A stretch of 64,000 nt of DNA from Blautia sp. Marseille-P3201T (GTDB lineage Bacteria; Bacillota; Clostridia; Lachnospirales; Lachnospiraceae). Positions 1,578-17,930 of the stretch are shown here, in pieces. The stretch's first letter is position 1. Every line of letters begins with the position of its first letter. Under the pieces are notes generated by a model. It saw only the letters and a list, made by a program, of their open reading frames with translations, was not told the origin of the DNA and made no database searches. The DNA is taken from assembly GCF_900120295.1 (NCBI RefSeq), contig NZ_LT635470.1, forward strand, positions 806,001 to 870,000, written 5' to 3'. Position numbers and translations under genes: made by a program.

Positions 1578-1663
1578 TGGTCTCATAAATTAAGACACTT
1601 TTTCGGACATTTTTTAATGAATCTGATATACTAAATTCAGTATGAAAGAGAGGATTCATAATT

Positions 1664-2011: not shown

Positions 2012-2819
2012 AGAACTCCCTGCTTCTGTTGGAGCAAAACTGCTCGATATTAACCGTACAAGCATTTATTATAAAAGCTTGCCCGTCTCAGAAGAAGAGT
2101 TGGAATGCAAAGCGATTATTGATCATCTGCATACAGACAATCCAACTTGGGGAGCAAGGCAAATGTCGGCACAGCTGAAAAACAGGGGATATCATGTGGG
2201 ACGCCGCAAAGCACGTCGGTATATGAATGAAATGGATATTTGTCCTATTTATCCTAAAATGAATCTTTCTAAGCGTATGCAACAGGCCAAAGTATGTCCA
2301 TATCTTCTACAAAATGCCGTAATTGATGCTCCGAATCAGGCATGGTCCATTGATATTACCTACATTCCAATCAAGCACGGATTTCTTTATTTAACTGCTG
2401 TTATTGACTGGTACAGTCGTTGTATCGTTGGTTGGGAAGTTGATGATACCCTAGATACCAGAATGGTTATTAACGCTCTTAAAAAGGCATTTAAAACAGC
2501 AAAACCGCAGATTTTAAATTCAGATCAAGGGTGTCAGTTTACAAGCCAGCGATACATTGACTTTGTGAAAGAAAATGGCATCCGTCAAAGCATGGATGGA
2601 AAAAGTCGCTGGGCTGACAATATCATGATTGAGCGTTGGTTTCGCAGCTTCAAGTATGAGGAAGCGTATCTGACGCAATACAACAACATCAAGGAAGCAA
2701 GAACTGCTATTGGTCGCTATATTCACACATACAACTTTGAGCGATGCCATTCTGCCCTTGGTTATAAAACACCAGCTGAATGCTACTATCCGGCAATGCT
2801 TCTGCCGTATGTAGCTTAA
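1929..2819 (+). CDS. IS3-family transposase OrfB (DDE integrase)
   Basis: The catalytic subunit. After a HTH_21-like segment (GARQMSAQLKNRGYHVG) comes an rve-type retroviral-integrase core: first Asp in WSIDITYI, second Asp in NSDQGCQFTS, and the Glu within the conserved tail (FRSFKYEEAY to the NFERCHSALGYKTPAE motif). The independent frame opens with a TTG at 1929, with no clear ribosome binding site, so expression probably depends on slippage from OrfA at the A9 run (1940-1948). The core looks full length and intact. Confidence 0.85.
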   Translation: MTGSKKNLKKFVDQTTRVNLVRNLLTTKELPASVGAKLLDINRTSIYYKSLPVSEEELECKAIIDHLHTDNPTWGARQMSAQLKNRGYHVGRRKARRYMNEMDICPIYPKMNLSKRMQQAKVCPYLLQNAVIDAPNQAWSIDITYIPIKHGFLYLTAVIDWYSRCIVGWEVDDTLDTRMVINALKKAFKTAKPQILNSDQGCQFTSQRYIDFVKENGIRQSMDGKSRWADNIMIERWFRSFKYEEAYLTQYNNIKEARTAIGRYIHTYNFERCHSALGYKTPAECYYPAMLLPYVA

Positions 2820-3045
2820 TGCATATACGGATCAGGGACCTTTTCTCTGATTCCAGGTAACTACCAATCATATCAGTTCATTATAAAAACCTTAGATTTT
2901 TGTCTTGACAACTGAACCACTATAAACAACCTTCACAAAAACGCCTCTTTTGTTACATCTATATGTAAAGAACTATCTGCTTTTTTACATTTAAAACACG
3001 CTATACCAAATTGTAAAGATTTTACTTTCAAATTTATTTATAAAA

Positions 3046-3083
3046 AAAGCTGTAAGATTCCACTATTAGAATTCTTACAGCTT
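3046..3083 (-). terminator. Strong hairpin, probable intrinsic terminator
   Basis: The arms AAAGCTGTAAGATTC and its near-perfect complement (one bulge) flank a short loop. On the minus strand the stem is followed by a run of seven T. It would end minus-strand transcription coming from the island. Confidence 0.6.
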
Positions 3084-3224
3084 TCATTCTCATCATGTCA
3101 CATCCCTAAATTATAATTATTTATCTTGTAACACTCACACAAAAATCTATGGGTTATTTTCGGGTTATTTCTTCCACACAAATACCTTCCAAGTATTGAT
3201 TTTACTGACTTTTTAAGGAGTTCT
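3084..3224. other. Noncoding DNA at the left border of the island
   Basis: No gene. It contains closely spaced GGGTTATT motifs (about 3151-3170), the kind of short direct repeat seen near recombinase attachment sites, but no phosphatase coding sequence follows the truncated start at 3225-3263. Confidence 0.4.
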
Positions 3225-3440
3225 TCAAAGAGTGCCGTGGCACACGAAAAGTATTTTTATCATTGTTTTGTTTCTCCTTAATTTGCCCGGAAATGCCCTG
3301 TTTTGCAAGGTTTTCTGGGATTATTGTGATATGCTCTAAAATTACAGATTGTGGCAAATCAGAGCAGAATTGAGCACGTTGTTACTACCTGTTAGTAGTA
3401 AAATTGGTAGTAAAACGAAGATTCTTACTACTAAGAATCA
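3225..3440 (-). repeat. Attachment-site-like border A: regenerated 5' end of an LMW protein tyrosine phosphatase gene
   Basis: On the minus strand, AAGGAG precedes an ATG at 3263 that encodes MIKILFVCHGTL and then a stop (3225-3227). KILFVCHG is the signature start of low-molecular-weight protein tyrosine phosphatases, whose next residues are normally NICRSP. The same arrangement, with about 75-80% similar DNA, occurs at 17714-17930. Both copies share a core TGCCACGGCACTC (3229-3241 here), and both carry TAGTAG-type repeats at the far end (CTACTAACAGGTAGT). I infer an element end that supplies a replacement promoter, ribosome binding site and first codons to the target gene. Confidence 0.6.
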
Positions 3441-3441
3441 A

Positions 3442-4911
3442 TCAAATATCTTCTTTATTCACAACCAATTGATCAATTAAATTTTCTTTCAATTCTATTT
3501 CATGAATCTCAGGAAAAGAATAACAATAAATAGAGGCAATAATTATTTGATTTTCACTAAAATCACGCTTTAAAATATTCATCATCAAATCAATATTCTC
3601 TTGATCAACTTCTTTTCCTCTTGGAGAATCAAGAATAATTGGTAATTTTATTTGTAGATGTTTTTCAAGTTCCACAATATACGCCATCTTAAATGCAAAC
3701 ACCGTTTTATGAAGCACGGCTCCTGTCAGTTCTTTTAAATTCGATGTAAATAAATATTTTTTAGTAATGCTTTCTGCATCTCCAATGCCTAATTCTTTCG
3801 CATATTTAACTATTGTTTGGTAAAGTGACAAAACAACTGCATTATCACTTCTTGATATTTTAGCAATCTCATCCCGAACACTTTTTAATTCTTTTTCGAT
3901 TTTTTCAATTTCCTTTTTTATCACAATTTGATTCATTGGAATAGACACAATTCTTTTATCAAATGCAGCAGCAACCGAATCCGATTCAAAAAAAGAAAGT
4001 TGATCATTTTCCTTTTCTTGTTCACGTTGTATTTTTTCTATTTTAGAAACCACAGCAGCCAATTCACATGACAACATTTTTTTCTTTGCTATCAATAAGT
4101 CAATTGCATCATTTAAACCAACAATATTATCTTTAGTCACGGTTATGCACTGTCCCTCATCAGTTCTTACCAGTAATTTCATATCTGCAACAAATTCTTG
4201 AAATTTTTTATTTCCAGATATACTCTGATTAACTCTGCTAATTTCCCTCCTAATCGAAGACTGTTTCATTCTTAACTGTTCAAGTTCAATGTCAGTTTTT
4301 TCTTGATATGTATCATCAATCAAGCTATCTTCATTTATACTGTCCCTGTATTGTGCTATACTGAACATTTGTTTATATTTAGATAAGTCTGCTACAAGCT
4401 TTTTTTCTTTTAAAATTAACCCAGAACAATCTTTACCCGAAATTCCTCTAACAAGTTCATCTATATTAAAATGTATGCTTCCAATAACTACTCCTCTATT
4501 TATTAATAGCGTCCACCCTTTCTCCTGATCAAAATAAAAAGTTCCTAATAAATTGTTTAAAATTTCTTCATTTTCCGTATTAAATATTTTTGAATGAAGC
4601 TCCCTTATTTGTTCTGGTAATACATATATTTTTTCCTCATTACCACAAATAAATGATATAGTCGAATTACTTTCTCTGGTTAAATATACACACTTCCTAT
4701 TATCAAGAACCAATTGTACTTTTACAAAACATTTCTCAAATTTTATTTTTTTTGTACTTGGTATCGAATACCCTAATGCATATAATATAAATCTTACTAA
4801 AGTAGTTTTTCCGCAACTATTTTTTTCGCTATAAATCAAATTTGCATTAGTTCCAAATGAAATATTTCGTTCAAATAGACCATCTCGAATATAAATTGAT
4901 TTTATTAACAC
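3442..4911 (-). CDS. ABC/RecF-like ATPase of a nuclease-ATPase defence pair
   Basis: 489 residues. The N-terminal half-domain has a Walker A variant SEKNSCGKTT (about residues 28-37). A central charged, heptad-like region (about 190-340) is probably coiled coil. The C-terminal half-domain has a signature-like ELTGAVLHKTVFAFKMAY and a Walker B LPIILDSPRGKE, followed by IIASIY. This is the architecture of small SMC/RecF-type ATPases in ABC three-component and related anti-phage systems, where ATP-driven sensing licenses a partner nuclease. The gene overlaps the upstream effector gene by 7 nt, so they are translationally coupled. It ends about 180 bp from border A, making it the border-proximal cargo. 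The assignment to defence is by analogy. Confidence 0.7.
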   Translation of the reverse strand: MLIKSIYIRDGLFERNISFGTNANLIYSEKNSCGKTTLVRFILYALGYSIPSTKKIKFEKCFVKVQLVLDNRKCVYLTRESNSTISFICGNEEKIYVLPEQIRELHSKIFNTENEEILNNLLGTFYFDQEKGWTLLINRGVVIGSIHFNIDELVRGISGKDCSGLILKEKKLVADLSKYKQMFSIAQYRDSINEDSLIDDTYQEKTDIELEQLRMKQSSIRREISRVNQSISGNKKFQEFVADMKLLVRTDEGQCITVTKDNIVGLNDAIDLLIAKKKMLSCELAAVVSKIEKIQREQEKENDQLSFFESDSVAAAFDKRIVSIPMNQIVIKKEIEKIEKELKSVRDEIAKISRSDNAVVLSLYQTIVKYAKELGIGDAESITKKYLFTSNLKELTGAVLHKTVFAFKMAYIVELEKHLQIKLPIILDSPRGKEVDQENIDLMMNILKRDFSENQIIIASIYCYSFPEIHEIELKENLIDQLVVNKEDI

Positions 4912-5914
4912 AATTTCACTCCTTTCTTGATTCGATCTATTGTAAAGCGTCTTTTTATGATATTATGTATGACAATTTTTGCAAGTGCCTCCTGTATCTC
5001 TTCTTCCACACCATCAACGGCAAATTCTGAAATATAGTCTTTCCACTGAATTTCTATAAATTCATTTAATTTTTCACTTTGCTTTTTTTCTGTCTTAAAA
5101 TTGTTATAATCACTTAAAATTTTTATAAAAAACTCGCACTGCTCACAGTGTGAATTAATTACCTCAGAATACCTATTTACCACTTCTTCATACACGCCAG
5201 AATCAAACTGCTCCAGAAACGAATCTTCACATTGTTCAATTTCTGTTATTTGTACAAGAATGGGCCATATAATATCTTTTTTGTCAATTTTATAGCCGAA
5301 TCTTTTTTCCCGCCATTATCAAATACTTGCCAATGCCATGTTTCTAACATCTTCCTTCCAATTCCAGAAATGCTTATATTCAAATTCCCCATAAAATCGT
5401 TTATGCATTCCATAATGACTTTATATCTTTCATTTTCGTCATCTGTTTCAAAAGGTAAAACTTGTATTTTTAATTTATCAGTATCAAGAGGTTTCTCCAT
5501 TTTTGATAAATATCTGTCAACTATCTCCTCAGCCGATGGCGGTAATGTATTATAATTCCTATGTGCATGCCCGTAAAAAACATTTCTAGACTTATCATCA
5601 TTGAAGGGATTGGGTGAATTAGTAATTACAATTAATTCCTTTGCATCAACCCTTTCTCCAGCCTCTGATAATGATGTGAGTGCTTTTTTTAAATTTTTTC
5701 TCACATTAACAAAATCGGAACTCGCTTTTTCGACTGCTTTCGCTTGAGCCAATATCATCTTTCCAGAGGAAAGCTCTAATTCTATATCCTCATAATTACC
5801 TTCGAGACAAATTTTTTCCACATCTTCTATATTTTCCAAGAAAAGAACTATTGCAGCATTAACCTGAAAATCGAATCCAAAAACAACCGCATCTGCTCTA
5901 CGACTCCTTTCCAC
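4905..5914 (-). CDS. DUF4297/Cap4-like nuclease effector, reading frame broken at a slippery A6 run
   Basis: The first frame (GTG at 5914, GGAGG upstream) gives 222 residues. Its N-terminus carries a restriction-like nuclease core: Glu42-Asp43 in NYEDIELEL, then Gln57-x-Lys59 in AQAKA, as in DUF4297/Cap4 effectors. It stops at 5246. Sequence upstream of the second frame (4905-5195, GTG) is open in that frame back to the A6 run at 5277-5282 and reads DIIWPILVQITEIEQ, which continues the first frame sensibly. The junction is A AAA AAG, the dnaX-type -1 slippery heptamer; a -1 shift there yields one 336-residue protein. Either this is programmed frameshifting or one A was lost from an A7 run and the gene is dead. 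It is coupled to the ATPase downstream. Confidence 0.65.
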
Positions 5915-5979
5915 CCTTCTTCACCTCCATTTCACATTCTATTTTATATTATATCGTCATTTTCACTTCTTTTCCACAG

Positions 5980-6010
5980 AAAAAAACGCCCCAGCCTAAT
6001 GCTAGAGCGT
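5980..6010 (-). terminator. Intrinsic terminator of the integrase operon
   Basis: On the minus strand ACGCTCTAGC pairs with GCTGGGGCGT (with G-U pairs) around a short loop and is followed by seven T. It lies 16 bp after the integrase stop, separating it from the downstream nuclease-ATPase pair. Confidence 0.8.
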
Positions 6011-6025
6011 CATCCCACTTTCATA

Positions 6026-7306
6026 TTAAATTACCTTAAACATTTTCTGTGACATCGGTTTCTCCTTCTTCTGCTCAACCTCCGCCTGTGCTTTCCTAAA
6101 CTCTTCCATCCGTTTCAATTCTTCCTCAGCATCATCGAATCCGATATGCGTGTACACATTCATTGTAACCGATATATCCGAATGCCCCATAAGGTACTGT
6201 AGTGTCTTAGGATTCATTCCCGATTTTGCCATATTCGAGCAATAGGTGTGTCTGCATACATGAGGTGTAATATTTGGCATCTGTACTCGGTAAATGTCAT
6301 TGTATCTACCGACCATATGATTGAAACGATGTTGCCAGTGCATTGCCACAAGTGGCATTCCATTATCATCGTAAAACAGGAATCCGCTATATCCATCTAT
6401 GGCTTTCTCCACTTTCGGTGCATTTCTATCCTCAATGATTGCCTGAAACATCTGTGCCACATCCTCCGTGATTGGTAATACTCTTGTTCCGGCATCCGTC
6501 TTTGTGGTTTCTATGATGTATCGCATATCTGATGTTCTCTGCAACTGATGGTCGATGTTCACAGTTCTATTCTCAAGATCAATGTCCTTCAGCGTCAAGC
6601 CACAAAATTCTGATATTCTCATTCCCGTATGAAAGAGTATGTACACCACTTCATAGTATTTGCAGTACACCACATCGTCATGCACAAACTTTAGGAACTT
6701 TCTCATCTGCTCTTTTGTGACTGCCTCTCTTGTGACTGCGTCATTTACCAATACCCCGGCAAGCTGGAATCCGAATGGATTCTTTACCAGAATGTCATCA
6801 TCCACCGCCATCTGAAAGGCCGGGCGCAGCACTCCACGAATAGTATGAATAGAACTGTAGCTTTTCCCATCTTCCTGCTGCAATTTTATAAGGAATAACT
6901 TTGCATCGGAAGTTTTCACACTTCGTATCGTCTTTTTGCCAAATGCTTCCTTCGCAAGTAATCTCTGTACTGTAACATATCCCTGTTTCGTACTTTGCCT
7001 TACTCCTGTCTTTGTTTTCAAATATCGGTCTACCAGTTCACAGACAGTCATCTGTCCGTCCACGATATTTACAAGCAAATCCAAATCTGTGTTTACCTGT
7101 TTTTCCAACTCACGAAGGGAAAGGCATGGCTTTTTGCCCTTTGGAAGTTTATCCGTAGGTTCCAGTTTCCAACTGTATACAAAATGTGGTTTTCCATCAA
7201 TATGATATTTATATTGATATTTTCCGTCTGCCCTTATACTCTCTCCCGGTCTTAATACCCTGCGTTTGGAATCGCGCCTTGTCTGTCCTCTTCCTGCCTT
7301 TAACAT
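6026..7306 (-). CDS. int: Tn916-type tyrosine recombinase (integrase)
   Basis: 426 residues with the domains of Tn916-like integrases: N-terminal arm-binding AP2-like domain (about 15-90), SAM-like core-binding domain (about 95-180) and catalytic domain (about 195-395). All catalytic residues are visible: Arg230 in HTGMRISE, Lys269, His349-x-x-Arg352 in TPHVCRHTY, His375 in LMGHSD and the nucleophile Tyr385 in MNVYTH. It would cut and rejoin attachment-site cores, probably the repeated TGCCACGGCACTC. The ATG overlaps the stop of the excisionase-like gene upstream (TAATG), with AGGAGG as ribosome binding site. The family prefers A+T-rich or gene-internal targets; the phosphatase 5' end as target is my inference from the borders. 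Confidence 0.93.
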   Translation of the reverse strand: MLKAGRGQTRRDSKRRVLRPGESIRADGKYQYKYHIDGKPHFVYSWKLEPTDKLPKGKKPCLSLRELEKQVNTDLDLLVNIVDGQMTVCELVDRYLKTKTGVRQSTKQGYVTVQRLLAKEAFGKKTIRSVKTSDAKLFLIKLQQEDGKSYSSIHTIRGVLRPAFQMAVDDDILVKNPFGFQLAGVLVNDAVTREAVTKEQMRKFLKFVHDDVVYCKYYEVVYILFHTGMRISEFCGLTLKDIDLENRTVNIDHQLQRTSDMRYIIETTKTDAGTRVLPITEDVAQMFQAIIEDRNAPKVEKAIDGYSGFLFYDDNGMPLVAMHWQHRFNHMVGRYNDIYRVQMPNITPHVCRHTYCSNMAKSGMNPKTLQYLMGHSDISVTMNVYTHIGFDDAEEELKRMEEFRKAQAEVEQKKEKPMSQKMFKVI

Positions 7307-7515
7307 TATCCCCGCCTCCTTAGTTCTGGATGGTTACGCAGATACTTTTCAAAGGCTACACGAAGTATCAGCTTGCGTTCTCCGTAGTATGCCAGAAAAT
7401 CTTCTCCATCCGTATTACTCAATAAATCATAAAATTTTCTCCGGCTCAAAACAAAATATTCAATTGCCTCAGAAGGATTTAAAATATCTTTTTCTGCTAA
7501 ACTTGGTCTTGCCAT
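7306..7515 (-). CDS. Small excisionase-like DNA-binding protein (DUF6462-like)
   Basis: 69 residues from the ATG at 7515, which is preceded by AAAGGAAG. The longer open frame upstream lacks a ribosome binding site. The sequence (LNPSEAIEYFVLSRRKFYDL, then a C-terminal basic end) has the winged-helix layout of excisionase-type proteins: helix-turn-helix near the N-terminus and an arginine-rich tail. It is coupled to the integrase by a 1-nt overlap, so it probably directs recombination towards excision. No close family is certain. Confidence 0.65.
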   Translation of the reverse strand: MARPSLAEKDILNPSEAIEYFVLSRRKFYDLLSNTDGEDFLAYYGERKLILRVAFEKYLRNHPELRRRG

Positions 7516-7625
7516 AAAAGTACTTCCTTTCTGCCAAAAGTGGCTGTTTTCACAGGTTCTCGAGGTCATACTATATATCACTCTAAACGCTGATAATATC
7601 AACTACTTTCGGCAGACAAACGGAA

Positions 7626-7850
7626 TTATATCTCCGAAGAGGCACTGATAAATTTTTCAAACTGCGGGCGGATAATCAGATACCTGTTTCCACTGAATAC
7701 CGCAAATCTTCCTCTGTTATCTTCTGCCAGTCTACGCATTTTCTTTGTCCCGATATTAAAATACGATGCTGCTTCTTTGATTGTCAGTGTGTACTTTTCA
7801 CTCACAGGGACAAGTGTATTTTCCGTAGTATCATGTTTTTCTATTGCCAT
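7626..7850 (-). CDS. xis: Excisionase (Tn916 Xis-like)
   Basis: 74 residues from the ATG at 7850, with AAGGAGG at ideal spacing. It carries the LTIKEAASYFNIGTKKMRRL helix-turn-helix and the FAVFSGNRYLIIRPQFEKF wing typical of Tn916-family Xis proteins, which bend attachment-site DNA to favour excision. Two excisionase-like genes in a row (with 7306-7515) is notable; one may instead act as a regulator. Confidence 0.75.
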   Translation of the reverse strand: MAIEKHDTTENTLVPVSEKYTLTIKEAASYFNIGTKKMRRLAEDNRGRFAVFSGNRYLIIRPQFEKFISASSEI

Positions 7851-7900
7851 GTGCAATCCTCCTTCCATACGGGCTGCAGTATTTCCACAGCCCCAACTGC

Positions 7901-8821
7901 TTAGTCTGCTGCCATCTGAAGTATCTTGACTGCATCCTTACGGATCAGTTTTCCGTCCAGATACTCACATCCCAGATACCCTACCTGTCCACGCATGGCA
8001 AACTTTTCTTTCAGTGTGCGGATAGTCAGCGGGAAACGCTGAACGAGCCAGTAATTGCTGAAATCTCCAAATGCGATTACTTTCTGCCCCTTTCCGATAG
8101 CCGGCATGGAATCAACAATCTGCACAGGTTTTGAGAAAATCGTTTCATCACTTTCCTTCCACAGATAGTTTCCGGCTGAATCTTTGAGGGTACGGAGTGC
8201 CAGAGCCGTTTCGTCATTCATAAGCCATGTACCATGTTTACGGTATTTCTTATCCACGGACAGATACAGTTTGATGATTTCATCATAGCTGATAGCAGAA
8301 TCACTCTCTGCCGTCACGCCCGTTTCTGCTCCGTCAGTGGCGTGCAGAATACCTGTCGGCTGATTTTCCCCTGTTCCGTTGATAAACGCCTGTTCCTCGC
8401 TTGTGCCAAAACAACGTGCCATTTTTCCGATTACATAATCCTCTATGGCAAAGGACTGGTCAGAAGCGAACTCCAATCCAAGTCTGACAAGCTCGGACAA
8501 TCTGTATGCCTGTACTTCAAACCGCTGGAAATCATCCTCGTTATCTAGGCCTTCCAGGTTGACCATATCACCCCATTCAGCCTGACCCTCACAGTCAAAT
8601 GTCCAAAGACGGCTGTCACTTCTGGTCGCATTCACAACGGTTGCCAGCTGACGGACTACACTTTCTTTCTGGAGTGCTGCCGTATATTTTTTATTTGATT
8701 CTCCGGGCAGATGGTACGCATTTGTCTTGCTTTCACGGTTGTTATAAAGGCTGTCCGTAACTGCCTGTTTTCCTCTCATTTCGTTCCAAAAATCGTTATA
8801 ATAAGCTGTACTGTTAATCAT
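7901..8821 (-). CDS. HK97-type phage major capsid protein
   Basis: 306 residues. Typical HK97-fold features: an early ESVVRQLATVV helix, the LSELVRLGLEFASDQSFAIEDYV spine-helix region, the GTGENQPTGIL loop before the P-domain, TWLMNDETALALRTLKDSAG, and a final RGQVGYLGCEYLDGK strand region. It lacks the long N-terminal scaffold (delta) domain, and no protease gene is nearby. Its start overlaps the upstream small gene by ATGA. It lies between the primase and the excisionases, in the same operon as the integrase, with no terminase, portal or tail genes. It could build a satellite capsid, alter a helper phage's capsid, or be a relic. Family assignment is firm; role is not. Confidence 0.85.
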   Translation of the reverse strand: MINSTAYYNDFWNEMRGKQAVTDSLYNNRESKTNAYHLPGESNKKYTAALQKESVVRQLATVVNATRSDSRLWTFDCEGQAEWGDMVNLEGLDNEDDFQRFEVQAYRLSELVRLGLEFASDQSFAIEDYVIGKMARCFGTSEEQAFINGTGENQPTGILHATDGAETGVTAESDSAISYDEIIKLYLSVDKKYRKHGTWLMNDETALALRTLKDSAGNYLWKESDETIFSKPVQIVDSMPAIGKGQKVIAFGDFSNYWLVQRFPLTIRTLKEKFAMRGQVGYLGCEYLDGKLIRKDAVKILQMAAD

Positions 8822-9078
8822 AATAAACCTCCTGAAAAATTATTTTGTGTCATATAACCACTCTGTCTGCAATAATCCACTGCTTCAGAATAGGACAGAT
8901 AAAACATCTCCAATGACCCGTCAACCACACGGTAATAGGGCGGGTCACAGGATTCGCTTGCCATGATAATGACCGGGCATCTGTCCCTTAAATTGATGAC
9001 ATTCACACATCTGTACTTGTCTGTTGAAAAATCCGATGGTTCAAACCGCATCGGTGGTGCTGCTTTCTGTTTTCCCAT
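8818..9078 (-). CDS. Small protein of unknown function in the capsid/primase operon
   Basis: 86 residues from the ATG at 9078, with AAGGAGG upstream. I do not recognise a family. The sequence has an acidic-aromatic start, a strand-rich middle (CVNVINLRDRCPVIIMASES) and four cysteines. It overlaps the capsid gene by 4 nt and starts just inside the primase 3' end, so it is part of the same transcript. Possible roles are capsid decoration or assembly or replication control, without direct evidence. Confidence 0.6.
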   Translation of the reverse strand: MGKQKAAPPMRFEPSDFSTDKYRCVNVINLRDRCPVIIMASESCDPPYYRVVDGSLEMFYLSYSEAVDYCRQSGYMTQNNFSGGLL

Positions 9079-9095
9079 GTATACCTCCTTTTTTC

Positions 9096-11405
9096 TTAGC
9101 AGAAGAAATCTCTGCACAAGAACCGATAGCCTGTTAAAAGTGTGGTTTTTTCTCCACCATCCCTCGGACGCTTGCGGACTACCGTACCGATTGTACGGAG
9201 TGCCTGATTAAAATTCCGGCTGTTCTCCGCAAAATATCCATTGTCATTGCACCAGTTGCGGTATGCCTGATACACAGCCGATGTCCGGCACTCCGCATCC
9301 TTCTCCTGTTCCAGAAATTCCTCCACAAAAAGTTCCATCTTATCGCTGTCATGCCGATAGGACATGGTGGCATCTTTTACTACTTTTGGCTGGGCAAAAC
9401 CTTCTTCTTTCAAGATGGTGTAGCCTTCAATCAGCCAGTTTAAGATAGCACTTGCCGCCTCCGGCCTGGAAAATTCTGCTTTCAGATTCTGTTCCTGTTC
9501 CCATTCCTCAAAATGCCTGTCAAAGGGAATGATCACGATACGTCCGCTCGAAAACAGTGTCATATCTGTAATAGCCGGAAGATAATTCGTATTCACATAC
9601 AACTTGAACTGTGGCTTGAAATCAAAACTGTTCTCATGCAGAAATCGTGCATTCAGCGTATCATTTCCCGTCATGCTTTTGATCTGTGCTTCATTCAGCA
9701 CCAGTCCCCGCCTTGGCTCTGAGATATTGGCAAACCGTACTCCGGCAAGCCGTGCAATATCCTCTGTCGGGTTCTGGCTGTTGGCAGACGGCTTTGCAGC
9801 AATCGTTTCCGGGCGGACAGTCAAACCGTAATCTCCCATCACATGAAGTGTGCTTTCCATCAGCGTCCCTTTTCCATTTCTGGTAGTTGCACCATAGTAG
9901 AAAAACATACATTCATAGCGGGTATCCCCTGTCAGACCGTAACCAAGGCTTTTCTGCATGAACCTTGCTTTCTCCGTATCCCCACTCATCACCTCTGAAA
10001 CAAATCTGGTAAAACGTGGATTCTTGGCATTCGGATCATAGGCTGCCCCGGCAATCTTGGTCAGCTTGTCCTGTGGCGTATGCGGATGGAACTCTCCCGT
10101 CTGCAGATTCAGTGTTCCGTTCTGACAGTTCAGGTAATAAACATTGCGGTCGAACTCAGACATTGCAATCGGATACACACTCTGGGCATCACTGATATAC
10201 GTGTTGCGGTAATTCCGGCTCTGCCATTTCGCAGAAAATTCCAGATAGTCCTTTCTTCTGCGCTCATCGGTAATTGTCAGGGCATATCTGACCAGACTGT
10301 CCGCAAGGGATTTTGCAAGCTCCATTGTTTTCAGTCCGCCAATGTCCGGAATCCACCGGGTCCCGTCATACACATACCACTTTTTCCTTTCCGGCACATA
10401 CCTTGCGATATCTTTATACACATCCGCAAACAATCTGCCTGAGCCGTTGTCATTCCACGGGTATCTGCTGTTATCCGACACGTTCAGTTCTATCAGCTTC
10501 TGCAGCATATCATCGAAATCGCTCTCCGCTGATGATTTTGCATAAGGCCTGTAGAAATCCAGTGCCTGTGCCACTGCCTTTTCCAGCGTCAATGCACCGT
10601 AGGTTGATCCACTCTGCACACGGTCCCACTTGCTCCGCATCAATCCCGATCTTCGGAACATCCTGTCCATCTGCTCTGTGTCACCGCCACACCAGAATGC
10701 AAGGATACTTGCAAGCGACATATCCGCATCGCTGTGGGATTTTCCTTCCGGAATTTCTCCATTCCACAAGGCTTTGAACTTTTCGCCCTGTCTGGAATCC
10801 GATGCTAGGCGGACCACGGAATCATCCAACAGATAGCTGCCTGGAATATCCTGCACTTCGTTCTTTTTCTTAGGAATCGGACGAAGCATATAAGTTTCCA
10901 GTATTTCCCCAAGTTCAACGCTTCGCTCCTCAACACCACGGTTACGGATCACATTTCCTGTCAGAGTACAAAATTTCTTCGTCACACCTGCTGCATAGAT
11001 TTCCAGACCAAGTTTCTGATTATTGATGTAATATCTGCCCGTATCATAAGACAGGGAAGATGCCTTACATACAATGCGGACTCCCGTGCCGGAGGGACTG
11101 AATTCTGTATAGGAGTCCATTTTCCACACGACATCTTCTGCCATTTGTGTCAGCTTTCCACCAAACACACAATGGTCGATATCTACCATGCAGAAATCAT
11201 CAAATGCACCCATACCGATTCCGTCATAACCCTCCATTGCATTGACTGCCAATCGAAAATCCGAAAAGGTATTTTTATCGGCACTGCTCGCTTTTCTGCC
11301 ATTTGTCTGATACGGCACTTTTGTCATGCGCCCGTTTCTTTCTTCATATTTCCACAGGCAAAAATATCCATCTTTTTTCAACTGTTCCGGAAGTTTCTCA
11401 TACAT
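9096..11405 (-). CDS. Phage/satellite primase-helicase (PrimPol + D5_N + SF3 helicase)
   Basis: 769 residues. The N-terminal ~190 form an AEP-type primase-polymerase domain with a VDID metal motif (74-77) and SGTGVRIV (105-112). Residues ~360-480 match the D5_N linker, and the C-terminus is an SF3 helicase with Walker A YGATTRNGKGT (about 504-514) and the FANISEPRRG segment as Walker B. Proteins of this P4-alpha/D5 type recognise an origin, unwind it and prime replication of satellites and small integrative elements. The start ATG follows GGAGGAG. It heads the operon that leads to the capsid, excisionases and integrase. A cognate origin may be the palindrome at 12659-12742 or the repeats at 13690-13790. 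Confidence 0.88.
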   Translation of the reverse strand: MYEKLPEQLKKDGYFCLWKYEERNGRMTKVPYQTNGRKASSADKNTFSDFRLAVNAMEGYDGIGMGAFDDFCMVDIDHCVFGGKLTQMAEDVVWKMDSYTEFSPSGTGVRIVCKASSLSYDTGRYYINNQKLGLEIYAAGVTKKFCTLTGNVIRNRGVEERSVELGEILETYMLRPIPKKKNEVQDIPGSYLLDDSVVRLASDSRQGEKFKALWNGEIPEGKSHSDADMSLASILAFWCGGDTEQMDRMFRRSGLMRSKWDRVQSGSTYGALTLEKAVAQALDFYRPYAKSSAESDFDDMLQKLIELNVSDNSRYPWNDNGSGRLFADVYKDIARYVPERKKWYVYDGTRWIPDIGGLKTMELAKSLADSLVRYALTITDERRRKDYLEFSAKWQSRNYRNTYISDAQSVYPIAMSEFDRNVYYLNCQNGTLNLQTGEFHPHTPQDKLTKIAGAAYDPNAKNPRFTRFVSEVMSGDTEKARFMQKSLGYGLTGDTRYECMFFYYGATTRNGKGTLMESTLHVMGDYGLTVRPETIAAKPSANSQNPTEDIARLAGVRFANISEPRRGLVLNEAQIKSMTGNDTLNARFLHENSFDFKPQFKLYVNTNYLPAITDMTLFSSGRIVIIPFDRHFEEWEQEQNLKAEFSRPEAASAILNWLIEGYTILKEEGFAQPKVVKDATMSYRHDSDKMELFVEEFLEQEKDAECRTSAVYQAYRNWCNDNGYFAENSRNFNQALRTIGTVVRKRPRDGGEKTTLLTGYRFLCRDFFC

Positions 11406-11441
11406 CCTGTGCTCCTCCTTCCCCGCTTATTTTCTGACGTA

Positions 11442-11624
11442 TCATTTCTCTGTGGCTCTTGCCGATAACCACACCTTAAATTCGGAAACAGGAACCAATA
11501 CCCGCTTGCCTACACGGACGATTGGGAAATCCGCCTCTCTGGTCAGTGCGTATGCTTTGCTCAGACTGATTCCCATCTGCATTGCCATTTCCTGTACGCT
11601 CATCGTGACTTTATCCATAGCCAT
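11442..11624 (-). CDS. AlpA/excisionase-type helix-turn-helix protein
   Basis: 60 residues with a MerR-like helix-turn-helix (VQEMAMQMGISLSKAYALTR) and the wing motif FPIVRVGKRVLVPVSEFKVW, as in AlpA-type activators and small excisionases. AGGAGG precedes the ATG. It is the first gene of the replication operon and is transcribed away from 11761; the gap of about 136 bp should hold both promoters. It probably regulates the operon, as AlpA does for satellite-like islands. Confidence 0.8.
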   Translation of the reverse strand: MAMDKVTMSVQEMAMQMGISLSKAYALTREADFPIVRVGKRVLVPVSEFKVWLSARATEK

Positions 11625-11760
11625 CCTCCTCTCTGCATTTCAAACATGAATTGCTCTTGTTTTCTATCACAGTATACTTTATAATGTTACCAAAGACTAT
11701 TTTCTATTGGTAAGAACTCGTACCGAAAGAAAGTTCTATCGGTAAGAATGGAGGTAGAAT

Positions 11761-12639
11761 ATGAACGAAGATTTCAGTTTGGGGAAAATGAGTGCGGATG
11801 CACGACTGACCGCAACTTTCAAATACTATGAAAAGACAGAACAGAATAGAAAAATCATAATCACTGCCTGTCTGGGCGAGGGCGATGTCCCAAGACTCAA
11901 CCGTGGATACGGCTTAGACGGAAATGAGCTCTGGCTTTCGCTGAATAACCTGTACCAGAGTATCCGTGGAAAAAATGACAACACTGCTGCCGATGATATC
12001 ATTTCTTGGTGTCAGCAGTACGCACACCCCTACTATGCCTCTGAGGACATCGAAGAATATCGTTGGGATATTGAAAAGGATACGGAATACTGGGATTTTT
12101 CCACTAACATTCTTGGTAATTTCACTTTTGATGTTCACACCATGCGGAAAGATCTCGAAAGCCTGTACCGGGATACCCTTGTCATCCTGATGTTCAAAAA
12201 ATGTCTGGAACGGCTTGACGTTTCCACGGATCTTGCGCAGATCACATGGACGAATGAATTTGCAGATTTTAATTCGTTTCCTATGCAGAAACATCTCGGT
12301 AAAATATCAGCTTACCTAAATAAAATGAGTGGCGTAACCATGAAGTTAGGACTGGATGAAAATGGAGAATTGAAGGTCATGCCGGATTTCCATTCTGTTT
12401 TTGATGCTGCCCGATTCGCTCTGTCGCAATATGTATCTATCCCTACGGATTACCCCATTGCTTATGCCGACCGTGTGGGCGTTGCCACCTGTGAGTGCTG
12501 CGGCCGTCTGTTCATCAAAAACGGAAACCGCCAGAAATACTGTGACAATCCAGAATGTAAAAAGGAACGAAACCGCAGAAAATCCCGCACTGCATATCGC
12601 AGAAAGATACAGGAAGAAAATGATAACCGCTGGGCGTGA
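11761..12639 (+). CDS. CGNR-like zinc-ribbon protein of unknown function (DUF6076-like)
   Basis: 292 residues. The first ~240 are an uncharacterised mostly helical region. The C-terminus has CECCGRLF, then YCDNPECKKERNRRKSR, a four-cysteine zinc ribbon with a very basic tail that probably binds nucleic acid. GGAGG at 11750-11754 precedes the ATG. It is divergent from the AlpA-like gene and convergent with 12803-13468. Similar proteins occur in Lachnospiraceae integrative elements; a regulator or antirepressor role is only a guess. Confidence 0.65.
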   Translation: MNEDFSLGKMSADARLTATFKYYEKTEQNRKIIITACLGEGDVPRLNRGYGLDGNELWLSLNNLYQSIRGKNDNTAADDIISWCQQYAHPYYASEDIEEYRWDIEKDTEYWDFSTNILGNFTFDVHTMRKDLESLYRDTLVILMFKKCLERLDVSTDLAQITWTNEFADFNSFPMQKHLGKISAYLNKMSGVTMKLGLDENGELKVMPDFHSVFDAARFALSQYVSIPTDYPIAYADRVGVATCECCGRLFIKNGNRQKYCDNPECKKERNRRKSRTAYRRKIQEENDNRWA

Positions 12640-12658
12640 CCACGGCTGTTTTCACACT

Positions 12659-12742
12659 GGGGCAAGATGTGGCAAGTAATATAGGTTATTTTCTATATAG
12701 GCTCTATAAGAATAACCTAAATCATCTGCCACAAGTTGCCCC
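12659..12742. repeat. 84-bp imperfect palindrome between convergent genes
   Basis: The outer arms GGGGCAAGATGTGGCA (12659-12674) and TGCCACAAGTTGCCCC (12727-12742) pair at 14 of 16 positions. The inner arms AGGTTATT (12683-12690) and AATAACCT (12711-12718) pair perfectly, and both spacers are 8 nt, so the structure is symmetric. It could be a bidirectional terminator (though T runs are poor), a protein-binding site or a replication origin for the element's primase. Confidence 0.6.
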
Positions 12743-12802
12743 AACTGTTTTTCCATAGAAAAAGGGCATCGGTCTGCACCGACACCCCATGTCATTTTAT
12801 CC

Positions 12803-13468
12803 TTATTCTCCGCAGCGGAATGCTGAATTTCCCGTAAGATTTCTAAGCAGAATCTTTCTCGCTGTCTTATACTCTTTTCCGATAAAGCCAAGTCTGAGCA
12901 GAAAACAGCGGAAAGCATATTTGTCATTGTCCGTTTCGGTCGGCTTTGATGATACCCTTTTTGCATCTCTTGCCATATCACACAGCCTTGAGATAAATTG
13001 CGTGTAGGCTGCAATATCATCTCCATCCACTGTGTATGGAAACCATGTGAAATTTATTTTTTCATCTGTAATTTCAATCTCTGTGCTGTCCATCCGAAAT
13101 GCACGTTGAAAAAGTGTCTGCTTATTTGCTATGATCTTCTGCAAATTTTCCAATGCCGTATCCGTAAGACTATCTTTTGGAATTGCTATTGTCAGCTTCT
13201 CCTGTTGCACTGGCACTTCTTCGGTTACTTCTGCATCGTCCTGAAACCCACACTCTCGTAACTGCAGAATCAGGTCTTCCACCGTTTCTTCCTCTACTCC
13301 CTCCGGGATATGCAGTACTCCCTCTTTGTCCAATCGGTATCCTGCAATATCATATGCACAGCTTGGTACCCGTTCATAATGCGGTGCTGTTCCAAGTATG
13401 TTTCCAATCTTCTGTGCTAGTTTTGGTCTCTGCTTTGATTTCAATGTAAATCTGATTTCCTTCTTCAT
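12803..13468 (-). CDS. Conserved integrative-element protein, often annotated 'virulence protein'
   Basis: 221 residues beginning MKKEIRFTLKSKQRPKLAQK, a start I associate with a family found in clostridial conjugative transposons and islands. The first ~90 residues look like a compact domain ending in an acidic segment (EEETVEDLILQLRECGFQDD); the rest is helical and basic at the end. No catalytic motif is evident. AAAGGCGGG precedes the ATG. Its function is unknown, and the virulence label in databases is not backed by anything visible here. Confidence 0.6.
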   Translation of the reverse strand: MKKEIRFTLKSKQRPKLAQKIGNILGTAPHYERVPSCAYDIAGYRLDKEGVLHIPEGVEEETVEDLILQLRECGFQDDAEVTEEVPVQQEKLTIAIPKDSLTDTALENLQKIIANKQTLFQRAFRMDSTEIEITDEKINFTWFPYTVDGDDIAAYTQFISRLCDMARDAKRVSSKPTETDNDKYAFRCFLLRLGFIGKEYKTARKILLRNLTGNSAFRCGE

Positions 13469-13953
13469 AATATGTACCCGCCTTTCTTATTCGGTAATAC
13501 ATATATCACTCTGACGGCACAGAATAGCAAGACAATTCGGATTATATTTCTGCCAAAATGTACGCAGAAAAACTGTGATTTTTATGCTGCTTTTTACACG
13601 TTTTTTCTGCGTATTTCGGTACTATCCGGCAAAACAAAATCGACTTTAGCGATGATATTCTGCGGATATTTTCACATCAACCGACCTTAGCGGGTATCCC
13701 CCCTGTTTAATTCTGCGAAAATTCGCACAAAGGGGGCCATCGGTCTTCAGGAAAAAAGGCTGTAGAGATTTGGATACCCCCAGCTATCCAAAATAATTTT
13801 ATATTTTATCAACTACCGATTCACTCTATTAAATGTTTTTATTTTCTGATATAATAATATGTGATTTAAATAGATTTATATACTTTATTTCCGCATGTAT
13901 ACTCATGGCTTTATACAGCCAATGATTATTCAAATAACAGGAGGAAACTTATA
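13469..13953. other. 485-bp noncoding region with inverted repeats, origin- or transfer-site-like
   Basis: No gene. Contains GGTATCC (about 13693) and its inverse GGATACC (about 13775), C-rich and G-rich tracts between them (CCCCCC, then GGGGG), and a small hairpin TGCGAA-AA-TTCGCA (about 13717-13730). The last ~120 bp are very A+T rich and supply the ribosome binding site AGGAGG for the downstream endonuclease. The cluster resembles origins or nick sites of mobile elements, but no relaxase gene is present. Confidence 0.4.
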
Positions 13954-15063
13954 ATGGGATTAAAAGAGAACGCTTCAGCCAAACTTAATGCCGCATATGT
14001 CGATGCTCAACGGACTATCAATTCAACATGTGCCCACAAGGATTTTATTGATTTTGTAATTGATAATACCCATCTTACATATAAATATGTGTTATTTACA
14101 GCTATACTTGCAAAAGCAACAGATGAAAGTATTAATACTTTATGTTTACAAAAAAAATCCGAATTGCCAGGTGCATATGATGCAAGAACAATTTGCCATA
14201 AAGTAATTGTGCCTTTTGAAATGGAGGTACTCGACAAGGCATTAGGTGGCTCAAATGAACCATTTTTAAATAAACCTGCTCGTTTTCCAGAACTTTCAAA
14301 AACAAACGCTGTAAGGCGCGGCAATGATCAGACTATCCTTAATTCTCTTTGTGACAACCTTCCTCTTATTACTACATCAACAGATGCTTACGAATGTTTA
14401 GTATATTTACTTTCGAAGCTAATAAATATAAAAAATTCAAAATCAACTATGACAACTTTCACTATAGAAAAAAATGCAAATCTCCCTGCGCATCTTATGG
14501 CATATATGGAAAAAGCCCTAGAGCACAGTTATGAAGGGGAAATCCTTACCCTTCTCGTTGCCGGAACATATCATCTCATGTACAACGAACCAAACGCTAC
14601 CGTTGAGGTACACCCTGTTAATCAAAGCGGTGCATCAGGTCGTGAAATCAGTGATTTAGATATATATGTTGACGGTTCTTTAGTTGCATCTAATGAGTTA
14701 AAAGATAAGGACTATGCCGAAACAGATGTCCGTCACGCGGCAGATAAGGTTCTTTCTGCTGGCGGTACAAAAATGCTTTTTATAGAAGGACCAAGAGCCA
14801 ATGCTCAAGGGGATTTCATAAATAATATTGAACATGAATATCTTAATAAAAATTTTTTACTTCGAGTTATATCATATGAAAATCTTTTATCTTCAATGAT
14901 TGGTTCAATTGATAAAATTGATAGTGAAGAATTTATGCATTTTATAATCGAAACTGCCCAAAATACTAAGTTCAAAGATGAAACCATAGCCTATCTTATG
15001 AAATTAGCAGATGAATTTTTCGATCTAAATCATTCCAAAAACAAAGATGACTCTACTAAGTAG
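13954..15063 (+). CDS. Type II restriction endonuclease, probably SacI-like
   Basis: 369 residues, close to the length of SacI-family enzymes. A PD-(D/E)XK core is visible: SDLDIYVDG (Asp234, Asp236), then NELKDKDY (Glu248-x-Lys250). AGGAGG lies just upstream of the ATG. It is convergent with a cytosine-C5 methyltransferase 45 bp away, the expected protective partner, since SacI-type systems (GAGCTC) use C5 methylation. The specificity is inferred from family resemblance only. The codon use is A+T rich, like the rest of the island. Confidence 0.7.
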   Translation: MGLKENASAKLNAAYVDAQRTINSTCAHKDFIDFVIDNTHLTYKYVLFTAILAKATDESINTLCLQKKSELPGAYDARTICHKVIVPFEMEVLDKALGGSNEPFLNKPARFPELSKTNAVRRGNDQTILNSLCDNLPLITTSTDAYECLVYLLSKLINIKNSKSTMTTFTIEKNANLPAHLMAYMEKALEHSYEGEILTLLVAGTYHLMYNEPNATVEVHPVNQSGASGREISDLDIYVDGSLVASNELKDKDYAETDVRHAADKVLSAGGTKMLFIEGPRANAQGDFINNIEHEYLNKNFLLRVISYENLLSSMIGSIDKIDSEEFMHFIIETAQNTKFKDETIAYLMKLADEFFDLNHSKNKDDSTK

Positions 15064-15107
15064 TTCTACAACAGCGAGCAAATATCAATTTACTCGCTGT
15101 TGCGATT

Positions 15108-16178
15108 TTATACATACTTTTTTTGATATTCAATTACTGCCCTAGCCACAGCTTCTGCTAATTTACATGGTACGGCATTTCCTATTTGTGTGTAGACCTT
15201 GCCTTTATTTCCACAGAAAATATAATTGTCTGGGAAAGTCTGTATCTTTGCTGCTTCCTTTATTGTAATTCTTCGTAATCGACTAGGTGCATCTTTAAAT
15301 TCCGGCACTATTCTTCCATCAATTAACCCCTGATGGTAATCTACAACCCAATCACATTCTGCATTTCCATACAAATACTCTTCATCCACAAATGGTGTCT
15401 TATTTCCACCCATAGATGCTGGTAAAGTATTTGAATACCCATCTACATTAATTGGTCTTCCTTGTCCATTAAAATACATCCCCGCATATGGTGATTTTCT
15501 CATCACTGGATGTGCCGCAAATGTTATCTTTGCTGTACAAGTATTGGGATTAATATCTGTTCCAGCTTTTCCTAATGATTGTAACAAATCACGAATGACG
15601 GGAGCTTTGTTTTTCTGCTGCTCTATCATACCCATCATATGGTGTTCGAAAAAAGGATCAAGACCTGATTTGATTCCTATAAAAAATACTCTTTCTCTTT
15701 TTTGTGATACCCCATACTCTGATGCATTTAAAATAAACGGCATACATTGATATCCCATTTTTGTAGCTCTTTCTAAATATTTCTTTCTAGTTAGTTCCCA
15801 CTTTTCTAATACACCTAATGCTTTTACATTCTCCATTACAAATGCCTTGGGTTGAACTTTTTCAACTACATCTAAAAAGGTAAATATCAATTTACTTCGT
15901 TCATCGTTTGGATCCATTTTGCCAGCAACCGAAAAACCTTGACAAGGTGGTCCCCCAAAAACAAAGTCTGCACCTTCATATTTAGCCATATCATTAATTA
16001 CATTGTTTATATCATCATTAATCATCACACAATTAGAATGGTTTATTTTATATGTTTCGGCTGCTTCTTTTACTAATTCATTTGCAACCACGACTTTAAC
16101 ACCCGCATTCTCAAATCCAATATCCATACCGCCAGCACCTGTAAAGAGTGATACTCCTGTTACGGTATCAGCCATCAT
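15108..16178 (-). CDS. DNA (cytosine-5-)-methyltransferase
   Basis: 356 residues with the ordered C5-methyltransferase motifs: I (SLFTGAGGMDIGF, about 10-22), IV with catalytic Cys (GGPPCQGFSVAG, PPCQ at 77-80), VI (MENVKAL, about 115), VIII (QKRERVFFIG), a variable target-recognition region (about 190-300), then IX and X (PSRLRRITIKEAAKIQTFP, QIGNAVP). It would methylate cytosine in the recognition site of the convergent endonuclease to protect self DNA. It overlaps the AbrB-like gene upstream (stop/start at 16178), so both come from the promoter at 16387-16415. Confidence 0.92.
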   Translation of the reverse strand: MMADTVTGVSLFTGAGGMDIGFENAGVKVVVANELVKEAAETYKINHSNCVMINDDINNVINDMAKYEGADFVFGGPPCQGFSVAGKMDPNDERSKLIFTFLDVVEKVQPKAFVMENVKALGVLEKWELTRKKYLERATKMGYQCMPFILNASEYGVSQKRERVFFIGIKSGLDPFFEHHMMGMIEQQKNKAPVIRDLLQSLGKAGTDINPNTCTAKITFAAHPVMRKSPYAGMYFNGQGRPINVDGYSNTLPASMGGNKTPFVDEEYLYGNAECDWVVDYHQGLIDGRIVPEFKDAPSRLRRITIKEAAKIQTFPDNYIFCGNKGKVYTQIGNAVPCKLAEAVARAVIEYQKKYV

Positions 16179-16360
16179 TACGCACCTCCATTTTCATCGT
16201 GAATTCTAAAAACCAACGACTGATTTTCTGAATCCAAATATATATCAAATTTTGTTTCTCCTTTTTTCACATTAAGATTCGACAACACTGCTTTTGGTAA
16301 GCGTATTCTCATATCCTGCTGAACAACATATGTATCAAGATAAATACATGAATCTGCCAT
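16178..16360 (-). CDS. AbrB/MazE-type small DNA-binding protein, likely R-M regulator
   Basis: 60 residues with a swapped-hairpin AbrB signature (MRIRLPKAVLSNLNVKKGET then DIYLDSENQSLVFR). AbrB-type dimers bind DNA directly and often autoregulate. It is co-transcribed with, and overlaps, the methyltransferase, and its promoter carries two copies of TTAGACTAAAAA placed 22 bp apart around the -10. It therefore plausibly plays the controller role that XRE-type C proteins play in other R-M systems. The ATG follows GAGGAGG. Confidence 0.7.
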   Translation of the reverse strand: MADSCIYLDTYVVQQDMRIRLPKAVLSNLNVKKGETKFDIYLDSENQSLVFRIHDENGGA

Positions 16361-16375
16361 ATTGACGCCTCCTCT

Positions 16376-16415
16376 TTTTTAGTCTAATTATACCCTGTTT
16401 TTAGTCTAACTTCAA
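16376..16415 (-). promoter_or_regulatory. Promoter with duplicated operator for the AbrB-methyltransferase operon
   Basis: On the minus strand TTGAAG (16410-16415), a 17-bp spacer and TATAAT (16387-16392). The 12-mer TTAGACTAAAAA occurs twice: within the spacer (16398-16409) and just after the -10 (16376-16387). The 22-bp spacing is two helical turns, fitting a cooperative repressor. Confidence 0.7.
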
Positions 16416-16631
16416 CCTGAACATAAATTTTCTTGGTACTAATGTTAACATTAATTCTGTCAAATCCCTTTATCCCACAATCACAATACTCAAATTCTCA
16501 CAATCACAAAAAGAGCTTGGAGAAAACTTATAATATTTACTCCAAACTCTCGAGTTTCCTTTGCTTTAAAGCAATTTGTAATATTTCTGAAAAATATAAT
16601 ATTAAAATTATCAAATTTTTCCGTTTACTCT

Positions 16632-17528
16632 CTATTTTTTTTCATTATTTCTTCTCAGGATTTCATCATCGATGAAATCCTGAAATATTGCATAATCTCT
16701 TATCCCATTACCGACCTTTTTCATTTTTTCAAGGATTTTATTTTTCTGATTATCAGAGAGGTTAGTCTTGGCATTTTCTGCTTCATTCATCCAATGTTGA
16801 ATTTCTTGTCCTACTACGCTTTTAATTCCTTGATTCTCGGCAACAATTGTTCCCCTGCCATTCAAAATCTGTGTGTTTGTCCACTCTTCCTGTTCTTCCA
16901 TTGAATAAAATGTTACAATCATAATTCCTAGCAGATTAGATATCGTGAATGAAGTTTTTCCATTATAAGCAGAATACGAAGTAATACTCCTATGCATAGC
17001 TACACTTGGATTTTTTTCAAAATCATAATTACTTGCACTTTCAATTCTATCAAAGAAAAACATATGATTCTGAATATCTGAAACATCTTGTCTCTTACCC
17101 AAAAGATAATCTCTCATGATGTTCTCAGCTCTTAACATTGTCAGTAGTATTTCCTTATCAAAAGTCGCATCACAAGAGTACTCTTCCAAATCTAAATATA
17201 AACTTCTCCAACTTAGTGAAACTATAAAACAAGTTAAATTCTCGTCATAACTGAATTCTCGCTGCTTATGATCTTGCCACGGATTAAAAATATTACTTGC
17301 AAACCAACGTTCCTTGGCACTAAATAGTTCCTCGCAGTCATGGCACAGCATATAATGTTTTTCTATATCCTGTGCTACTTTATTGGGTTCATTTGTTACT
17401 CGAATATTACCAAGTGCTGTCTTTATCATTTTTCGTCCTACAAAACGCTGAACAATATGACTAAGTTGAAGTTCCTTATTTTGCCTACACAAAGCACATT
17501 GGCCATATACTATTTTCTCCTTTCCCAC
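16632..17528 (-). CDS. HNH-like zinc-ribbon protein, possible nuclease
   Basis: 298 residues. The N-terminus has CALC (11-14 region), then LQLSHIVQRFVG, then LCHDCEELF: a two-CxxC arrangement around a Ser-His-Ile, as in HNH-type nucleases and their inactive relatives. The remaining ~220 residues are not recognised. It lies in the island between the R-M locus and border B, with the ATG or GTG region at 17528 preceded by GGTGGGAAAGG. A defence role is suggested by position only. Confidence 0.55.
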   Translation of the reverse strand: MGKEKIVYGQCALCRQNKELQLSHIVQRFVGRKMIKTALGNIRVTNEPNKVAQDIEKHYMLCHDCEELFSAKERWFASNIFNPWQDHKQREFSYDENLTCFIVSLSWRSLYLDLEEYSCDATFDKEILLTMLRAENIMRDYLLGKRQDVSDIQNHMFFFDRIESASNYDFEKNPSVAMHRSITSYSAYNGKTSFTISNLLGIMIVTFYSMEEQEEWTNTQILNGRGTIVAENQGIKSVVGQEIQHWMNEAENAKTNLSDNQKNKILEKMKKVGNGIRDYAIFQDFIDDEILRRNNEKK

Positions 17529-17713
17529 CTCAATATTCCTCCATACATTTTTCTATTGCTTCTAAGTAGTCCACTACTACTAAGGATTTCTCCCAACACG
17601 TTTGCATTTATCCCGATTCCGCTCATGAGCCTTAGTAGTCGAAACCGTAGTAATTCCAAGGATTTCTACCATATTCTGCCCTGTGTTGCCCCAGTCTATG
17701 AAGATATGCATTA

Positions 17714-17930
17714 TCATAAAACTGGAGTGCCGTGGCAGATGAATAATACTTTTATCATTTGCTCCTTTTTGTCCGGAAATGCCGTATTTTACAAGGATTT
17801 CCGGGTTTATTGTTATATTGTTGTTTACTTATCAGCTAGGCAAATTATAGCATAATTTAGCAAGTTGTGACTACCTGTTAGTAGTAGAAATAGTAGTAAA
17901 ACGGGAAGTCTTACTACTAAGACATTTTCA
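17714..17930 (-). repeat. Attachment-site-like border B: second regenerated LMW phosphatase 5' end
   Basis: On the minus strand AAAGGAGC precedes an ATG at 17758 encoding MIKVLFICHGTPVL and a stop (17714-17716). It resembles border A at 3225-3440 over about 200 bp in the same orientation, including CCGGAAATGCC, the TAGTAG repeats and a CTTAGTAGTAAG end. Codons differ between copies (ATA-CTT against GTA-TTA, GTG against ATC) while the encoded KxLFxCHG is kept, which points to coding constraint. Sequence on its left side carries AAGGATTTCTACC and AAGGATTTCTCCC repeats, possible recombinase arm sites of the first element's other end. Confidence 0.6.

Follow-up and report, generated by a model that had tools for sequence, protein, structure and literature searches.

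Probable attachment junctions of stacked elements with Tn916-type integrases at the start of a tyrosine phosphatase gene in Blautia

Tn916 itself integrates at loose, AT-rich targets with low target specificity, and phage-inducible chromosomal islands (PICIs) are phage satellites, a class with which one of the elements described below is compared. Closer in mechanism are the dusA-specific integrative elements (IMEVchUSA3), which are reported to insert into the 5' coding region, to supply a replacement gene start and to occur as a tandem pair at the site (PMC8409611). SXT, as cited there, inserts at the 5' part of prfC and brings a new promoter and N-terminus (PMC8409611). Here, we analysed 64,000 nucleotides of Blautia sp. 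Marseille-P3201T (contig NZ_LT635470.1, positions 806,001 to 870,000; hereafter the window), in which two borders each rebuild the start of a low molecular weight protein tyrosine phosphatase (LMW-PTP) gene. As with SXT and the dusA elements, the junctions lie inside a 5' coding region and the frame is restored by the element. The dusA study compares the altered N-terminus over 35 residues and measures expression by lacZ fusion (PMC8409611), whereas the present case is known from sequence: its target is the loop of clostridial LMW-PTP genes, about 7-9 residues precede the core, and the integrases are of Tn916 type; relative to SXT as cited there, gene, hosts and integrase are all different. 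We conclude that the two borders are very probably attachment junctions of stacked elements whose Tn916-type integrases insert at the Cys-His-Gly codons of the LMW-PTP phosphate-binding loop. The border features are as follows.

3233..3242, minus strand: attachment core TGCCACGGCA of border 1, separating element 1 from element 0
3243..3263, minus strand: replacement start codons of border 1 (MIKILFV), with the ATG at 3263
17728..17737, minus strand: attachment core TGCCACGGCA of border 2, separating element 2 from element 1
17738..17758, minus strand: replacement start codons of border 2 (MIKVLFI), with the ATG at 17758

Translation on the minus strand from the ATG at 3263 gives MIKILFVCHGTL and one stop codon, and from the ATG at 17758 MIKVLFICHGTPVL and two stop codons, with AAGGAG upstream of both. 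A preliminary description made from the letters of the window had proposed a ribosome binding site, an ATG and a phosphatase-like start running into a stop at each border, and this was borne out: the peptides are MIKILFVCHG and MIKVLFICHG, with the core common to both followed by stops. The sequence TGCCACGGCACTC, allowing up to one mismatch, occurs at two sites in the window, both of them the borders (shuffle mean 0.00, 100 shuffles), and exact copies genome-wide are found solely at these two sites. Upstream of the cores, the two sequences share 78% identity over 207 positions in the same orientation, in line with the 75-80% over about 200 bp first estimated. The shared core that had been proposed is present at both borders, but the portion that also occurs in the phosphatase gene, TGCCACGGCA, is shorter than the core common to the two borders.

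The phosphatase body, correctly predicted to lie outside the window, was located further left in the same genome. It is the better of two PF01451 matches (C10:796443-796913; 116.7 bits, model positions 1-144 of 144, hence the whole family model), is intact and begins MEKIKVLFICHGNICRSP. Its core (C10:796877-796886) lies 12,356 bp from the core of border 1, a distance that corresponds to element 0. From the gene outward, the order is element 0 (12,356 bp), element 1 (14,495 bp, window 3233-17737) and element 2 (decayed). The tandem stacking that had been suggested thus holds, but with three elements instead of two: left of 3233 lies the far end of a further element. The integrases of elements 1 and 0 (int1 and int0) both combine a Phage_integrase catalytic domain with the Tn916 Integrase_DNA arm-binding domain (PF00589 and PF02920), and int0 ends 160 bp before the phosphatase ATG.

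We then compared element/gene junctions at 64 gene loci in 2,016 pairs (gapped identities, without a random baseline) and found that ends and genes are dissociated, with 99-100% identical ends joining phosphatase genes that are 67-70% identical. For example, L025 and L086 have the same sequence in the 150 bp upstream and 67% identity in the gene, L003 and L025 share 99% upstream and 67% in the gene, and L015 and L016 show the reverse case (61% upstream, 99% in the gene). Loci L082 and L083 share 99.95% identity along 3,894 bp and diverge 8 bases beyond the GGC of the core, where L083 alone continues into the gene; the contigs of L081/L082 overlap once and do not close into a circular form. The sequences at these junctions show an integrase-side end that runs from a ribosome binding site through a start codon and the opening codons as far as the core TGCCACGGCA; where such an end adjoins the gene, the gene body follows in frame. 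An end that meets another element keeps orphan start codons and runs into unrelated DNA, mostly soon reaching stops, which is the situation of both starts in the window.

The start codons might instead be conserved as half of an attachment site bound by the integrase, and not for translation into the phosphatase. Across 48 clusters of orphan ends, the core is indeed nearly frozen at its wobble positions, as DNA recognition would predict (TGC in 45, CAC in 44, GGC in 47, and A as the next base in 48/48), and random sequence with stops follows to its right. Left of the core, however, the third positions of codons are variable (0.87-1.69 bits at codons -6 to -1) although the encoded residues hardly change: codon -6 gives I in 42 clusters, codon -5 gives K or R in 47 and codon -4 gives I or V in 46. 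Binding alone would not favour such silent changes. The search pattern itself partly set codons -3 to +2, and left free codons -7 to -4 beyond the start codon, the core wobble and the final A. Moreover, 39/43 gene clusters and 40/48 orphan clusters have a Shine-Dalgarno-like motif no further than 20 nt from the start. We therefore consider conservation for binding alone highly improbable. The mostly silent variation left of the core also agrees with the early remark that the codons differ between copies while the peptide is kept. In the preferred reading, attachment junctions of stacked elements, selection would keep the element start codons so that the phosphatase stays intact, recombination would proceed by a crossover inside the core with Xis-dependent excision, and translation of the phosphatase (in some elements its transcription too) would depend on the adjoining element.

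The association with integrases was assessed in the best 80 named-genome loci among the matches listed in an integrase-alignment scan; Eubacterium ramulus ATCC 29099 and Blautia massiliensis GD8 are among the hosts with close int1 relatives. Of the 68 loci with at least 1 kb of downstream DNA, 64 have a motif for the phosphatase start codons on the strand of the integrase and no more than 5 kb downstream of it, as does 1/12 loci with less; on the reverse strand the motif occurred 0 times in 1,124 kb. A first, strict motif had matched 56/68 loci and was widened post hoc after 8 of 12 misses showed M or C in place of L. Among the 65 motif-bearing loci, 45 join a gene reading NICRS or NVCRS and 20 are orphan starts. 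Nine more same-strand motifs fall outside the 5-kb interval, and seven of the nine are upstream of the respective integrase; as none reads on as NICRS, they resemble the ends of other elements. In viral contigs, the motif was present in 14/22 loci with at least 1 kb downstream and in 0/12 with less. Many LMW-PTP genes elsewhere thus show element/gene junctions at this codon, such ends are linked to Tn916-type integrases in other genomes, and the proposal of an integrase family inserting at the phosphatase start codons is well supported. In contrast to Tn916, this family has one fixed target (the same 64/68 loci), which would make it a case of Tn916-type integrases with strict site choice and provide a set of naturally occurring gene-start replacements at a single locus. 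The insertion site, and hence one exact end, would be fixed for a large family of phages and islands of gut Clostridia. Separately, the record PV036456.1, a "complete" Monoglobales phage genome, carries the first 126 LMW-PTP codons (MIKILFVCHGNICRSPM...) at its edge (record positions 1-380; L200:27881-28260), with no annotation beyond "similar to hypothetical protein"; the integrase of this phage shares 73% identity with int1, and a search of the final 6 kb at the other end gave no core.

Within the genus, 19/20 genomes contain the phosphatase gene and 10 have integrase sequence upstream of it, of which G003 and G008 hold remnants only and G007 a fragment. Among the remaining nine, about 1.5 kb upstream was covered in G005, G006 and G018, and the contig ends within the gene or up to 1.5 kb from it in G010, G012, G014, G015 and G019. 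The ninth, G016, has no integrase in the 18 kb upstream of its phosphatase and is the nearest candidate for an empty site, but it is not a clean one, because the open reading frame (ORF) beside its gene resembles one inside the stack of genome G004; no clean empty site was obtained in the genus. ADH flanks the stack in G000 and G004 and has matches of ~60% identity in 13 other genus genomes, where it lies 1.5-1.9 Mb from the phosphatase in three single-contig genomes and on another contig in nine, one genome having no phosphatase match. In G001, the phosphatase (L027/L028, C1:1639747-1640218) is in two pieces, one with an internal TGA, downstream of an integrase.

A wider family sample contained the gene at E ≤ 1e-25 in 44/60 genomes (46 places), of which 40 were fetched; those left out were G000 and G007 from the own genus, G029 and G064 at contig ends, and two second copies. 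Six genes with too little upstream DNA were set aside, and of the other 34, 16 had same-strand integrase sequence upstream, partly as fragments, and 3 more had an orphan start alone. The core was present within one mismatch in 17/19 occupied genes versus 6/14 unoccupied ones (Fisher P = 0.007; one gene without a recognised loop dropped), and seven genes with a loop reading CLG or CWG were all unoccupied. Contigs end within ~0.8 kb upstream of the phosphatase start in 8/40 sampled genomes (L213, L214, L215, L217, L223, L224, L232 and L235), as would be expected for a site with variable or repeated neighbours. An orphan-start pattern (ACNC type) was further detected in 14/396 genomes at 16 places (0 for the reversed control), with an in-frame start codon close by at 13/16 places in 11 genomes. 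Besides G000, four genomes (G168, G342, G378 and G409) have the orphan place and the gene on one contig, and the orphan start lies upstream in the same direction, 5 to 79 kb away, in 4/4. Full-size integrases stand between the two in G342, and no integrase was found in the far 18 kb of G409, the sole part looked at.

Stacking also recurs in other genomes. Element ends meet something other than the gene in the 20/65 named loci with orphan starts, the phosphatase gene of G004 is preceded by orphan starts at C1:1205409, 1208736 and 1238625, and IMG contig 2846323532 (L058, L059) carries an element-1-like unit followed by an element-0-like unit, in the order of the window genome. The window interval 2922-3314 is found at 94% identity in L059, and L086 covers most of it at 97%. 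Several elements appear able to pile up at one phosphatase spot while the gene still reads whole. Recombination or duplication between elements could in principle have produced the similar ends while just one integrase targets the gene, and ends, bodies and integrases may well be exchanged, given that L059 matches element 1 at 91% in the primase, 90% in the excisionase and 85% in the capsid but at just 75% in the integrase. However, integrases only 41-44% identical to int1 (L089, L032) adjoin the same start codons, and the two window borders differ at 22% of positions, so that we give this explanation little credence. That the fragments are decayed phosphatase duplicates or pseudogenes without a tie to integration, or chance peptides, has practically no chance of being correct and is ruled out by junctions recurring at the same base, for although the fragments look like the beginning of the gene and soon meet stop codons, they break there in unrelated genomes downstream of a same-strand integrase, and the element/gene junctions already contradict it.

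Several observations weigh against our interpretation of the borders as attachment junctions. The motif is missing in 4/68 named and 8/22 viral loci with enough DNA; the occupied genes L216 and L221 have cores with 3 mismatches, and the junction of L221 lies roughly 100 bp ahead of the gene's own loop. In G378, the integrase pieces that separate the orphan start from the gene have the reverse orientation, and no integrase was found between the two in G168. For element 2, a relaxed core search and an integrase search gave nothing credible at the left end. Finally, no promoter-like site was found on the gene strand at border 1 or in element 0. Each element had been proposed to carry a substitute promoter plus first codons; the first codons with a ribosome binding site stand, and a promoter at each end would be the less secure part. 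Border 2 has a promoter-like site (10 of 12, with TG), and across 78 distinct end clusters such sites occur in 23 versus 14.1 expected under first-order resampling, a mild enrichment by which promoter supply from element ends is weakly supported. Read-through transcription from the integrase may be an alternative.

The interval between integrase and attachment site (att) forms a cargo slot in part of the integrase family. In the strict-motif set (57 loci), it exceeds 700 bp in 33/38 loci whose integrase is at least 65% identical to int1 and in 0/19 of those below 65%, and 43/47 ORFs in the long intervals are codirectional. On the integrase tree (82 rows, 67 labelled), the trait requires 6 changes versus 20.4 when shuffled (0/500 as low). 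In the window stack, the slots hold the candidate defence system PDC-M46 (element 1) and a type IV restriction-like protein (element 2). An enrichment of cargo in known defence genes was unsupported, as PADLOC at 1e-10 matched 8/30 cargo proteins (the largest ORF from 30/33 loci; L129, L167 and L178 omitted) versus 5/20 chromosomal control ORFs (20 of 41 drawn), the control matches being of housekeeping type as judged without a rule set beforehand. These intervals hold variable, largely unannotated genes and would be worth screening.

Titles and abstract openings listed in searches of open-licence literature yielded no report of integration into an LMW-PTP gene. In two papers with the term tyrosine phosphatase, the passages concerned were unrelated, one dealing with an EPS-cluster gene (PMC10763512) and the other being a reference (PMC4632033). 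The mechanism has precedents in SXT/prfC and the dusA islands; what looks new is the target, the integrase family and the presence of a cargo slot between integrase and att. A broader view, that the LMW-PTP loop is a general docking port in Clostridia where tailed prophages, capsid-bearing satellites and mobilizable islands compete and stack, and where the gene-adjacent element controls the amount of phosphatase to its benefit, is speculative and rather unlikely to hold.

The remaining features of the three elements are listed below.

1..3232, minus strand: far (left-end) part of element 0, continuing left of the window to the phosphatase (genome context L007)
270-1061: MerR-like regulator in element 0, by resemblance judged by eye
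1664-2819: IS3-type transposase pair in element 0, by resemblance judged by eye
3264..3440, minus strand: right end of element 1, repeat-rich and with a ribosome binding site; 78% similarity to the end of element 2
3442..5914, minus strand: candidate defence system PDC-M46 (PADLOC, ORFs), the cargo that separates integrase from att
3442-4911, minus strand: PDC-M46B (PADLOC)
4905-5195 and 5246-5914, minus strand: PDC-M46A, matched by two separate ORFs (PADLOC)
6026..7306, minus strand: int1, tyrosine recombinase with Tn916-type DNA-binding domain (PF00589 and PF02920)
7626..7868, minus strand: excisionase, Tn916-Xis (PF09035)
7901..8821, minus strand: HK97-type major capsid protein (PF05065, TIGR01554)
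9096..11405, minus strand: primase/helicase (NrS-1-like, D5_N)
12803..13468, minus strand: protein matching a phage amidoligase family (phrog_2443)
13954-15063, plus strand: SacI-type endonuclease (PF09566)
15108-16178, minus strand: C5 cytosine methylase, restriction-modification partner of the SacI-type endonuclease (PF00145)
17759..17921, minus strand: right end of element 2, which holds a promoter-like site at 17873-17844 (10 of 12) as well as a ribosome binding site
17917..20217, minus strand: element 2 cargo adjoining its att, type IV restriction-like helicase/PLD protein
20218..28700, unstranded: presumed decayed rest of element 2, with insertion-sequence-like ORFs, methylases and TdeIII-like endonucleases

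Since neither the integrase nor the far-left core of element 2 was found, its left limit (~28.7 kb) is a guess based on the glyoxalase gene at 28828-29238; a glyoxalase flanks the G004 stack as well. Also in G004, a 3.3-kb unit between two orphan starts (L106:6410-9737) contains AlbA-like and glutaminase-like ORFs (by eye) and an integrase remnant, and a similar AlbA-like ORF sits directly before the phosphatase in G016. Element 0 carries a MobA_MobL relaxase (PF03389; L007:8653-10227) upstream of int0, as in an integrative mobilizable element, and other ORFs upstream of int0 resemble, by eye, a primase and a single-strand-binding protein. Within its 14.5 kb, element 1 resembles the PICIs in having an integrase, a primase, restriction/defence genes and a capsid gene, but unlike in the PICIs no packaging gene (no terminase) was recognised among its proteins scanned. 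With one HK97 capsid gene and a primase (7901-11405), it may be a satellite or a prophage remnant. Because PDC-M46A is split over two ORFs (4905-5914), the candidate defence system may be inactive here. The integrase and excisionase domain families of element 1 (PF02920, PF09035) are those of Tn916, and int1 is 44% identical to a protein of phage IPP61 annotated "transposase", which we take to be Tn916-like.

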